DNA of 64,000 bases from a bacterium. GTDB taxonomy: Bacteria; Electryoneota; RPQS01; DYHQ01. The notes under the pieces were generated by a model. That model ran no database searches and had not been told where the DNA came from. It saw only the letters and a program-made list of their open reading frames with translations. A program made the translations under genes and the position numbers. Every line of letters begins with the position of its first letter. The first letter of the stretch is position 1. This document shows, in pieces, positions 19,216-51,044 of the stretch. Location of the stretch: contig JAUXGA010000001.1 of the NCBI GenBank assembly GCA_030622545.1, positions 372,001-436,000 on the forward strand, read 5' to 3'.

Positions 19216-19227
19216 ACGGAGGTTCCT

Positions 19228-19446
19228 ACGGCCAAAGAGCAACCGATAAAGGTCGACGGCATTGTTACGGAAACGCTTCCGAATGCCACCTTTCGGGTCG
19301 AACTGGAAAATGGTCATTTGATTCTGGCCCATATTTCCGGAAAAATGAGAATGCACTTCATCAAGATTCTTCCCGGAGATCGAGTCACGGTGGAACTTTC
19401 CCCTTATGATTTACGGCGCGGCCGTATTACGTATCGATACAAATAA
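19228..19446 (+). CDS. infA: Translation initiation factor IF-1, apparent ACG start codon
   Basis: IF-1 binds the A site of the 30S subunit during initiation. The frame reads [20 protein letters not shown], then [39 protein letters not shown] and ends RYK, an OB fold colinear with E. coli IF-1. No ATG, GTG or TTG lies between the in-frame map stop (19213-19215) and the conserved core. The codon aligned with Met1 is ACG (19228-19230), five bases after a perfect GGAGG (19218-19222). Starting there gives exactly 72 residues, the E. coli length. By analogy with the AUU start of E. coli infC, a poor start codon on an initiation factor could serve autoregulation; that is inference. A sequencing error (ATG to ACG) is the alternative. 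Confidence 0.9.
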
Positions 19447-46499: not shown

Positions 46500-47741
46500 T
46501 CAGGCCGCCCGCTGTGATTTTCGCTTGCGCCCTAATGCATGGGACAGTTGATAACTTAATTCTGTCAGGATGTTGATGGGTGTATAGAGCCTGTCCAAAT
46601 GGTCTCGCGCTGTTTGAACCGCGCGCACGGCAAGTTCGGAATTCGCATCTGGAAAGGCATCGAGTAATTTCTCCGCCCGATCTTTCACACTGGAAAGCAT
46701 CAACTGAAGTGACATATCTTTCCCTGCTCGCCGTGCCGTCTGCAGGGTTGCAACATCGCGCAGGAAAAGCTGCAGAGTTCCCAGTGTAAGATGAACCCCT
46801 CTGTAATCGTTAGAGTAATCGTCAGGCAATAATTTCTTGAAAATAGCAGCAAGCTCTATCGGATTGCGATTGGCGCAGGCGGCCAGATAGTTCACGACCA
46901 GTGATTGCAGCGCGTTCCAGTCCATCTGAGTTAATTCCAGAGCTTGGTGGAGGCTTCCCCCGGACAATTGTGAAATCAAAGGAGCCGCATCACCAATATC
47001 CGGCTGACGAACCCTCAGTTCCGCTTCAATATCTTTTGCCGCAAGTGGCTGAAAAATGAGATGCTGACAGCGGGAGCGAATAGTCTCCAATAGCGCTCCT
47101 TCACGCTCGGCCATCAGAAGAAGATGCGTGTCTTCCGGAGGTTCTTCTAAGATTTTCAGGAAAGCGTTTTGCGCGTTGAGATTCATTTTGTCCGCGTAAA
47201 AAATGACAAAGACCTTTCGCTTCGCCTGATACGGTACACGCGAAGCTTGATTAATCAGCAAACGGATATGCTCAATGAGAATGTCTCTTGCTCGGGGGAG
47301 CAGTACCGGGAAGTAGTGGTCAGTAGCTTTCTTCTTAAGGGCTTCGAGAAGTTTTTTGTCAAAAAATTCCGTTGTTCCGTCTTGATGCTCGCTCTCCATT
47401 CGAGTCCGGCTTGTTTTTCCGGGACGGGGAGCGGTGATGTGCAAATCCGGATGCTGCAAACGAGCCGCAAGCAGGCACTGAGGGCACGTGCGGCAGGGAG
47501 CTTCTTCCGGCGATGTTTCAAACTTATCGCACAACAACGCCGTCGCAAAATCCAGTGCGACCGCATCTTTTCCTACACCGGGAGCGCCTGTGAACAGATA
47601 GGCGTGGGCGAGACGTTGATGTCCGATGGCTTTCTTGAGGTAGGAGCAGATGACTTTTTGCCCGACAACCCGCGAAAAGAAAGGCCCGGTTATCGTTTCG
47701 CCAGCCAGTGAAGAGGATTGTGTTTTTGTTTTCCTTCCCAT
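46500..47741 (-). CDS. holB: DNA polymerase III delta-prime subunit
   Basis: 413 residues. Clamp-loader AAA+ protein. Starts with a polar lead, then VVGQKVICSYLKKAIGHQRL and AHAYLFTGAPGVGKDAVAL, a P-loop with GKD rather than the degenerate form of E. coli. Zinc cysteines in PCRTCPQCLLAARLQHPDLH. Sensor motif MNLNAQNAFLKILEEPPEDT and LLETIRSRCQ are diagnostic. Its start lies inside the envC-like gene (52-base overlap). Confidence 0.93.
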   Translation of the reverse strand: MGRKTKTQSSSLAGETITGPFFSRVVGQKVICSYLKKAIGHQRLAHAYLFTGAPGVGKDAVALDFATALLCDKFETSPEEAPCRTCPQCLLAARLQHPDLHITAPRPGKTSRTRMESEHQDGTTEFFDKKLLEALKKKATDHYFPVLLPRARDILIEHIRLLINQASRVPYQAKRKVFVIFYADKMNLNAQNAFLKILEEPPEDTHLLLMAEREGALLETIRSRCQHLIFQPLAAKDIEAELRVRQPDIGDAAPLISQLSGGSLHQALELTQMDWNALQSLVVNYLAACANRNPIELAAIFKKLLPDDYSNDYRGVHLTLGTLQLFLRDVATLQTARRAGKDMSLQLMLSSVKDRAEKLLDAFPDANSELAVRAVQTARDHLDRLYTPINILTELSYQLSHALGRKRKSQRAA

Positions 47742-48907
47742 AGTTCGAAATGTATGCGATAGGTTCCGTTAGAACCGTTAACGCTGGCGGTTCCGAGGCT
47801 CTGTCCAGCGCGTACAAGATTCCCGCGCTTCAAGCTGAGTTGCTGCAGATGCCCATAGACAGAAAAGAAGCTGCCGGGATGTTCGACGATAATCACATTC
47901 CCAAATCCGCGGAGCCATGTGCTCGATGCTACGCGTCCTTCGGCAATACACGCGACCTCTTCGCCGGCAATCGCGGATATATCAATGCCCGGATTGTCAA
48001 TCACGGTTGCCAGCGTGCGATTTTTTTGCATGCCGAAATGCGTCAGAATATTTCCCTGTACAGGCCAAGGGAGGGAACCTTTCAGCGGAGTCAGAAGAGC
48101 GCCGGTAATCGGTTCTTCCGAAACGGAAGAACGCTGAGCCGAAGCGATCATCTCTTCGATTTTGCGCAGAGCTTCCTGAATCTCTTGCCGTTGTTTTTCC
48201 AGCAGGACTTTATCATTGCGCACCTGACTTAAATCGGCGGTCAGTTGAGATTGCTGCTGTTTCAACTCTTTTTGTTGAGACTTCAGAGCTTTCTCGGCTT
48301 TGGAAACTTTTCGCCGTGCGGTTACGATGCGTTCCTGCTCGCTGCTTAGTTGGCGCTTCTTCGTGATGATGTTTTCTTGAAGTTGATTTAATTCCTTATC
48401 TTGAATCGCCAGTTGCGCAAGATACTTTTCTTCAAATCTGTTTATGGTTGTGAGGACTCGCCGCCGCTTGAAAAGCTCCGGCAAACTCCGGGCTCCCAAA
48501 AGGAATTCATACGCAGCCCACTTCGATAATCTGCGCCGCGCTCCGATATGTCGCACATAAGCTGTCTGAAGTACCCGGCGATGTTCTTCCACATGGTTCT
48601 TCTCGATGGAGGAACTCGCCAAATCCTCGCGGCTCTCTTTCAGGGATTTTTCGAGGTCTCTAAATGTATTACTTAATCTCTTACGCTCCTTTTTCTGCGT
48701 ATGAATGAGCTGCGACTGTAAAGCGATTTGCTTGCGGCGAGTATCGATCTCTTCAAGGATATCCGTCTCCCGAAAGCTGTCCTGAAGCAATTTTCGTTCG
48801 ACATCCGCAAGCGCGCGTTTCAGGGAGTCCAAAGCGGCTTGATCCTGTGCGCAAAGAACGGAAGTCGCTATAAATAATAATGATATCAGAAAGACAGCGC
48901 GTCTCAG
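47690..48907 (-). CDS. EnvC-like murein hydrolase activator, apparent CTG start
   Basis: 405 residues if started at the CTG at 48907-48905. The frame then begins with a clean signal peptide, RRAVFLISLLFIATSVLCA then QDQ, behind GGAGG with eight bases spacing. The first ATG/GTG/TTG codon (TTG 48832) would remove that signal peptide. Coiled coil about 30-260, then a LytM/M23 domain: NPGIDISAIAGEEV, VYGHLQQL and RIHFELWEG. The first zinc His is Asn and the His of the HxH pair is Arg, so it should not cut peptidoglycan, as with EnvC that activates amidases at septation. Overlaps holB by 52 bases. Confidence 0.82.
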   Translation of the reverse strand: MRRAVFLISLLFIATSVLCAQDQAALDSLKRALADVERKLLQDSFRETDILEEIDTRRKQIALQSQLIHTQKKERKRLSNTFRDLEKSLKESREDLASSSIEKNHVEEHRRVLQTAYVRHIGARRRLSKWAAYEFLLGARSLPELFKRRRVLTTINRFEEKYLAQLAIQDKELNQLQENIITKKRQLSSEQERIVTARRKVSKAEKALKSQQKELKQQQSQLTADLSQVRNDKVLLEKQRQEIQEALRKIEEMIASAQRSSVSEEPITGALLTPLKGSLPWPVQGNILTHFGMQKNRTLATVIDNPGIDISAIAGEEVACIAEGRVASSTWLRGFGNVIIVEHPGSFFSVYGHLQQLSLKRGNLVRAGQSLGTASVNGSNGTYRIHFELWEGKQKHNPLHWLAKR

Positions 48908-48950
48908 GCTCTTGTCCTCCGTCTTGAAGTTGCGTGGAACTTAAACATAT

Positions 48951-49036: not shown

Positions 49037-49088
49037 ATAGCTGAAATGACTTCTTTACGCGGTTATCACCGTTTATTTGGAGGCTCTC

Positions 49089-51044
49089 ATGCAATGGCTT
49101 GCCTTTTTAATGATTCTCAGTTTCGCTCTGCAGGCTGCCTTCGCTCATGACATCCCTAAGGACGCTCTGCAGGCGTACGAACTACTGCGTGAATTCAATT
49201 GCAATAAGGAAGCCGCTTGGAGAACTACTCATCTTGATGCGGACAGTGTGCACGAGTATGATGTCCTCGATATGAATCTGGATATAAGCATCGAATCAGA
49301 GCCGGCGCCGCTGACAGGTCTGGCGCAGCTTTCTGTTTATATTCGTGATTTTCAAGATATCCTCTGGTTGAATGCAGAGAGCTTGACTATCGAAGATGTG
49401 ACCACGTCTCATGGGATACGTGCCTATGTTCATTGGGCAAATTGGTTGGGAATCGCGGGCCCTTGGCAGGTGGGTGATACGGTTGACTTTTCCATAACAT
49501 ACTCAGCGCCTGTTGTTGATAACCACAATCAAACCGGATTTCATTACGGCTGGCAAATTGCCTACACCTTTTCGGAACCCTATGGCGCGCGGCAGTGGTT
49601 TCCCTGCTATGATGAACCTTTCGATAAGGTTGACAGAGCGAGGATTGCCGTCGAGATGCCGGAGGGATGGCATCTGGCTTCCAACGGACGCCTCGATTCT
49701 ACCACATATCCTGCCCCCGGACGCGTGCGAGAAGCGTATGGCAATGACGAACCGATTTGCACCTATCTGATGTCCATCGCCGCCGCACCTTATGCACGCT
49801 GGTATGATGACCTTCCCGGCGGAGGACAGGTGCGGTATTTCGCCTTCCGGCAGGACAGCGCCGCCGCTGTTTTCGACTGGGAGCGAACGCCTCAGATGAT
49901 TTCCTTGTTTGAAACGCTGTTCGGGCCTTATCCTTTTCAGGATTATGGTATGGCGCAGGCTGACTTGTTTTATGGCTGGGGAGCGATGGAACATCAGACA
50001 TTTACGACGATGGGCTATCGGCTTATCGACAGCAACCGGACGTATGAAGGAATCGTCGCCCATGAATTGGCTCACCAATGGTTTGGTGACGCTCTTTCGC
50101 CGGTTGATTTCAGACATATGTGGCTCAACGAAGGCTTCGCGACTTACAGCGATGGTCTCTGGAAAGAACATTCGGAGGATTCGTCGGCTTTAGAGGATTA
50201 TTTGTGCACCATCGCGGATGGCTATTTCGCGGAAGATCAACGAATGCGCTATCCGATTTATGATCCGCCCGAGGGATACCTCTTTGGCGCTGCGGTTTAC
50301 TATAAAGGAGCGTGGGTGCTGCACATGCTTCGCGAGCAGATTCTCGGCGACGCCGGCTTTTCTGACGCTCTGCAAACCTATACAGACCGTTTTCTCTATG
50401 GGCATGTGGAAACAGACGATTTTCAGGAAGTCTGCGAAGAAGTCGCAAGTGAAAACCTCGATTGGTTTTTCGACCAATGGGTCTATCAGGCCGGATTCCC
50501 GGTTTTAAGTGTGGGTTTCGTCATCGCTGGTGAAACAGAGGTTAGCATAATAGTATCGCAACTGCAAACCGATGCACCCATCTTTAAATTTCCATTGACC
50601 TTCTATATTACTTTGGAAGACAGTGTTATCAATTTTACTCACTGGTTTGAATTCCCACTTGAAACGTATCTTATTACAATGCCCGGACCTGTTTTGGATG
50701 TTGGATTAACTCCTTTCCAGCCGCTTCTGTATCAGGGAACAGGAGCGGACGTGCCTCGTGATAATATCGCAGTTCCAATCGAGATTTCACTTGGACAAAA
50801 CTGGCCGAACCCATTCAACAGCACGACAACCTTTCCGCTGAGCTTAAGCAAAGCGAGCGTGGTTGAGCTCGCGCTCTACAATCTCTTAGGGCAGCGGATT
50901 GCGACCATAGTACAGTCACTCTATGAACCGGGAACTCACTCAATTTCATTTGAAGCGCCAGCTTCTCTGGCGACCGGAATCTATTTCGTCACGGCAAAAG
51001 CGGGAGATATGACAACCACACGCCGTGTGCTTTTCTTAAAATAG
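49089..51044 (+). CDS. Secreted M1 aminopeptidase with C-terminal sorting domain
   Basis: 651 residues from ATG 49089, behind GGAGG. Signal peptide MQWLAFLMILSFALQAAFA. Zinc peptidase core: GAMEHQTFTTMG (GAMEN-like), HELAHQWFGD with H325, E326 and H329, and zinc Glu E348 in NEGFATYSDGLW. The last 90 residues are a sorting module, LGQNWPNPFNSTTTFPLSLS, ALYNLLGQRIATIV, ATGIYFVTAKAGD and a basic end (TTRRVLFLK), of the type-A T9SS/FlgD-like group found in FCB bacteria. Probably surface-attached or secreted, feeding on peptides. Whether a type IX secretion system exists cannot be told here. Confidence 0.9.
   Translation: MQWLAFLMILSFALQAAFAHDIPKDALQAYELLREFNCNKEAAWRTTHLDADSVHEYDVLDMNLDISIESEPAPLTGLAQLSVYIRDFQDILWLNAESLTIEDVTTSHGIRAYVHWANWLGIAGPWQVGDTVDFSITYSAPVVDNHNQTGFHYGWQIAYTFSEPYGARQWFPCYDEPFDKVDRARIAVEMPEGWHLASNGRLDSTTYPAPGRVREAYGNDEPICTYLMSIAAAPYARWYDDLPGGGQVRYFAFRQDSAAAVFDWERTPQMISLFETLFGPYPFQDYGMAQADLFYGWGAMEHQTFTTMGYRLIDSNRTYEGIVAHELAHQWFGDALSPVDFRHMWLNEGFATYSDGLWKEHSEDSSALEDYLCTIADGYFAEDQRMRYPIYDPPEGYLFGAAVYYKGAWVLHMLREQILGDAGFSDALQTYTDRFLYGHVETDDFQEVCEEVASENLDWFFDQWVYQAGFPVLSVGFVIAGETEVSIIVSQLQTDAPIFKFPLTFYITLEDSVINFTHWFEFPLETYLITMPGPVLDVGLTPFQPLLYQGTGADVPRDNIAVPIEISLGQNWPNPFNSTTTFPLSLSKASVVELALYNLLGQRIATIVQSLYEPGTHSISFEAPASLATGIYFVTAKAGDMTTTRRVLFLK

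Follow-up and report, generated by a model that had tools for sequence, protein, structure and literature searches.

The window, a 64,000-nt stretch of DNA from the source genome (G000), carries on its minus strand a gene for an EnvC-like protein, at 47690..48907 when read from a CTG codon (405 aa plus stop). The CTG (48905..48907) is preceded by a GGAGG Shine-Dalgarno motif (48916..48920) with an 8-nt spacer, and opens a predicted signal peptide of about 20 residues (48848..48907, judged by eye) with likely cleavage between LCA and Q. The product begins (M)RRAVFLISLLFIATSVLCA-QDQ..., in which two arginines lead into a hydrophobic stretch closed by small residues. In this frame, which ends at the stop at 47690, an upstream stop leaves 11 codons before the CTG, and ATG, GTG and TTG are absent until a TTG at 48830..48832, 25 codons past the CTG. 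Weak codons besides this one are ATA, TTA and another CTG, the last within the hydrophobic core, and a listing of the frame shows no Shine-Dalgarno match of at least 4 bases at any other near-cognate before the TTG. The maximum mean Kyte-Doolittle hydropathy (13 residues) is 2.61 from CTG and -0.06 from TTG. Frame and hydropathy thus bear out the first-pass annotation, which had named CTG 48907, with GGAGG eight bases upstream, as the sole start giving a signal peptide, and TTG 48832 as the first conventional start, from which that peptide is lost. On these features of the sequence, CTG 48907 is very probably the real start of the gene.

The encoded protein has a LytM/Peptidase_M23-type domain at residues 306-398 (47714..47992, minus strand; PF01551, 5.7e-21), a coiled coil before it (by eye) and the hydrophobic N-terminus read from CTG. 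PDB EnvC chains are among its best matches (6tpi, 8.7e-21; 8hd0; 4bh5), with an EnvC chain aligned over residues 164-403. Signal peptide, coiled coil and LytM-type domain are common to this protein and the EnvC murein hydrolase activator. However, the NCBIfam EnvC equivalog, NF008644, which is the best-scoring NCBIfam model and matches over nearly the full length, gives 72.5 bits against a cut-off of 270, and the protein is therefore named EnvC-like and not EnvC. Active M23 enzymes carry HxxxD and HxH; at these zinc-ligand positions the EnvC-like protein reads, by eye, NPGID and RIH.

EnvC-like matches were found in 60 of the 61 genomes searched. The comparison within the family covers the source genome and one other, G001, which belongs to a different genus and whose EnvC-like protein is 56% identical; read from CTG, the two align ungapped over the first 18 columns. 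The G001 gene starts AGT CTG AAG GTG, and its GGAGGTGA motif contains a stop codon, which leaves only CTG or GTG as possible starts before the TTG at frame residue 25. The CTG lies 6 nt behind GGAGG and the GTG, two codons later and in frame, 12 nt; the CTG is the better placed, with a start at GTG possible. Since CTG and GGAGG are found in both genomes at 56% identity, a sequencing error in a single assembly is unlikely. Comparison of N-termini with relatives, the check proposed in the first-pass annotation, thus finds CTG behind GGAGG in G001, and a relative with a standard start, which was to speak against the CTG, is absent in that one genome. Translation from TTG 48832 to give a cytoplasmic protein, for which the conventional codon and a weak AGGA 10 nt upstream may be cited, would lose a hydrophobic N-terminus shared with G001 and leave a coiled-coil/LytM protein without export, while the GGAGG sits before the CTG; this reading is extremely improbable. 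In other families of the order and phylum the envC starts differ, being ATG in some (L004, L009) and often weak or ambiguous, some others having TTG or GTG and no evident Shine-Dalgarno. As the more distant envC genes of the order do not use CTG, it is a family trait for this gene. A scan of named genomes for the EnvC-like gene returned the G001 contig (C132, L031; DYHQ01000002.1) again, plus two remote matches. This contig carries relatives of window genes over ~50 kb, and its deposited name, Candidatus Puniceispirillum sp., looks wrong for the lineage.

Upstream of the gene, a short ORF (48904..48948, minus strand; ATG, 14 codons, TGA) ends with its stop overlapping the envC CTG. It was rejected as a meaningful feature, since short ORFs end on 29% of CTGA sites (898/3058), which is the chance level. 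The same figure counts against two readings in which this ORF would matter. In one, the assembly lacks a base, or a -1 frameshift takes place, and the protein begins at ATG 48948 with an extended signal peptide; the frame of this ATG does reach the CTG in the neighboring frame. However, the ATG has no Shine-Dalgarno, the G001 frame ending on the overlapping TGA has TTG and no ATG, and the own frame of the G001 gene has a stop inside the Shine-Dalgarno, making this account very unlikely. In the other, translation terminates on the short ORF and reinitiates at the CTG, coupling the two. The CTGA overlap is seen in both genomes, with a TTG-started frame there in G001, but no Shine-Dalgarno is seen for either short ORF (G000, G001) and the GGAGG suffices; coupling is an unlikely explanation. 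A promoter scan around the envC start was uninformative (1 weak match vs 0.5 expected).

The window also carries infA, encoding IF1, on the plus strand (19228..19446). Its start is ACG (19228-19230) behind GGAGG (19218-19222) with a 5-nt spacer, the sequence reading GGAGG-TTCCT-ACG-GCC-AAA-GAG, in agreement with the ACG start assigned to infA previously. The gene is present in 12 of the 13 genomes of the order and was not found in G012, which is 56% complete. All 12 have a near-cognate start (ACG in 10 and ATT in 2, both of one genus); a conventional codon lies 2 to 5 codons upstream in three of these frames (G004, G009, G011), less well placed. By pattern search, infA with ACG occurs in 10 of 39 phylum genomes, all within this order. 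Elsewhere in the phylum, our own reading of 13 genomes gave GTG in 5, TTG in 5 and ATG in 3, taken from the best 30 matches, with 4 further loci falling outside the motif of the script.

A third gene, rsfS, which encodes the ribosome silencing factor, lies outside the window. In G000 it starts at CTG 449823 of contig C18 (L126:13823-14296), and its product matches Pfam RsfS (9.2e-31). Thus envC, infA and rsfS of G000 are all led by a Shine-Dalgarno and lack a conventional start at the N-terminus. rsfS was found in all 13 genomes of the order, the G006 copy ending at a contig edge, and CTG stands behind a Shine-Dalgarno-like motif in all 12 informative genomes, the residues that follow being variable. 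A conventional codon occurs further upstream in 4 of these 12 frames (G001, G002, G010, G011), again less well placed. In the sample, CTG accounts for 0.287 of Leu codons, so that 12/12 CTG would arise by chance with a probability of 3e-7, assuming independence, which does not hold. Outside the order, rsfS was found in 24 of the 25 phylum genomes searched. By our own reading, the start is near-cognate in all six genomes of another family (ACG 5, CTG 1), and in the other 18 is CTG in 1, TTG in 14, GTG in 2 and ambiguous in 1, with none clearly ATG. The E. coli K-12 gene starts at TTG, as excerpts of PMC10917681 also state. E. coli and the order thus share a weak start on the same gene, although TTG is conventional, whereas the order has CTG and the other family ACG or CTG.

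A near-cognate start is expected for infC, which encodes IF3. In G000 this gene starts at ACG 334145 of the contig. By our own reading, infC of the order starts at ACG in G000 and G010 and at ATC in G003, G007 and G009, while the G004 sequence suggests that ATG may be used there; G001, G008 and G012 yielded no infC.

The first-pass annotation had called for a genome-wide scan for such starts. A looser scan was rich in adjacent-codon false matches, and stricter scans were therefore used, counting Shine-Dalgarno matches of at least 5 bases where a conventional start was absent or lay far downstream (strong motifs only). In a 456-kb sample of G000 (the window plus 392 kb, 17% of the genome), near-cognates stood behind the motif in 8 of 38 cases vs 7.8% expected (P 0.008). 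Scanning this sample is also what brought out rsfS at its CTG and infC at its ACG. The 400-kb controls, G002 from the same order (2/28) and the unrelated G049 (1/21), show no excess, and G000 differs from the two pooled with a Fisher P of 0.040. With envC and infA, the cases that prompted the question, removed, the G000 excess is borderline (6/36, P 0.058). Two of the eight matches (ATA 384469 and ACG 213485) look wrong and are taken as false. In G002, the infA and rsfS near-cognates follow weaker motifs and lie outside the sampled part or below the motif threshold. Between the window and the syntenic G001 contig, 58 homologous frames were compared by eye, and only infA and envC lack a conventional start near the conserved N-terminus.

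Three candidates from the sample appear in G000 only. A ROK-family kinase (L117:10432-11355) has ATT behind AAGGAGG, with a Pfam domain from residue 9 and the first ATG 75 codons in; its G001 relative starts at ATG. An SDF dicarboxylate symporter (L118:4502-5791, minus strand) has ATC preceded by GAGGT; its first conventional codon comes 15 codons later, and its relatives mostly start at ATG. For rmuC (L115:8020-9180), an ATC start would add a hydrophobic N-terminus, and the ATG 33 codons on also has AAGGAG; the search gave only two distant relatives, Pfam matches the product from residue 73 on, and the ATC assignment is tentative. For all three near-cognates, assembly error is a possible cause. 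A separate frame, L117:16887-17339, has AAGGAGGT with TCA 6 nt on and no conventional start for 25 codons.

These three cases would fit a genome in which start discrimination is generally relaxed, so that starts drift to near-cognates and the envC CTG is a start without regulation. However, near-cognates are kept at infA and rsfS across the order, which is more like selection than drift, and the initiator tRNA is ordinary; unregulated drift is a serious contender that falls somewhat short of an even chance. The preferred reading is real near-cognate initiation, which is known at infC and in Streptomyces at sigR and on this view also takes in IF1, RsfS and EnvC. An altered initiator tRNA was considered and rejected, as G000 and the other loci read (12 of 14, L241 being an elongator and L247 left out) retain both the CAT anticodon and the GGG/CCC stem. 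Given an ordinary initiator tRNA, the simple reading is that normal fMet-tRNA pairs with the near-cognates; a single base separates each of CTG, ACG, ATT and ATC from ATG.

In the proposed mechanism, GGAGG would direct ordinary fMet-tRNA to the CTG, and translation from there would yield a Sec-exported EnvC-like amidase activator. Pairing of CTG with the CAU anticodon is imperfect at codon position 1, predicting weak initiation, and the CTG may be retained for its low output and its sensitivity to start-codon stringency (IF3 with IF1), by analogy with infC and sigR. From the sequence we infer initiation at this CTG, low output and control by IF3/IF1; the control itself, argued by analogy, is plausible at somewhat less than even odds. 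The same analogy suggests that infA and rsfS would be under control of the infC/sigR type, with envC at least held at low output. Weak starts likewise mark IF1 (ACG/ATT), IF3 (ACG among others) and RsfS (CTG) in this order, three proteins with ribosomal subunits as their target. A more speculative proposal, and one that is on balance doubtful, is a start-codon-stringency regulon in which IF1, IF3, RsfS and, in one family, EnvC share near-cognate starts and rise together when IF3/IF1 are short relative to 30S. If such a regulon were real, subunit anti-association and cell-wall splitting would be tied to initiation fidelity.

Rare start codons under IF3 control are of a known kind. In the excerpts consulted, IF3, helped by IF1, polices start codons (PMC5472188, PMC11497404), infC has a near-cognate start with feedback (ATT in E. 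coli, ATC in Streptomyces; PMC5472188), and Streptomyces sigR has a GTC start that is repressed by IF3 and misannotated by start callers (PMC5472188). The present cases resemble infC autocontrol in having a conserved near-cognate behind a Shine-Dalgarno, and G000 infC itself starts at ACG; the difference is that here infA, rsfS and envC have such starts too, and any feedback on them would be hypothetical. Like sigR, envC is a gene outside the initiation factors with a rare start missed by start callers, although sigR encodes a sigma factor, starts at GTC and has demonstrated repression, whereas envC starts at CTG and encodes an exported cell-wall protein. Annotated bacterial genes very seldom have near-cognate starts: excerpts put CUG at 0.024% of annotated ORFs (PMC9845219) and AUG-to-CUG switches at 2 among 61,358 ancestral AUG starts (PMC5622118). 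A search of open-licence literature, seen mostly as listings, returned no near-cognate start for bacterial infA or rsfS and no CTG start for envC. Within the literature searched, the persistence of near-cognates at infA and rsfS throughout an order, together with a CTG on an exported EnvC-like protein, looks new. Near-cognates are kept in relatives of all three genes (envC CTG 2/2 in the family; infA 12/12 and rsfS CTG 12/12 in the order). Retention of such starts by IF1, and of CTG by RsfS, throughout an order, together with the CTG of an exported protein, would extend selected near-cognate use past infC and sigR.

With such starts, genes called in the standard way in this lineage can lose signal peptides and conserved N-termini. 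The first-pass annotation had offered two readings, a wider tolerance of near-cognate starts and mis-trimming of genes called from standard starts; infA, infC and rsfS support the former, and the latter, also supported, is compatible with it. A different discrepancy is seen in the gene divergent from envC (49077-51044, plus strand), whose product is an M1 peptidase carrying a type IX sorting tail. TTG 49077 is the start given in the ORF list, but GGAGG precedes by 5 nt an ATG that comes four codons later, so that standard calling would over-extend this gene.
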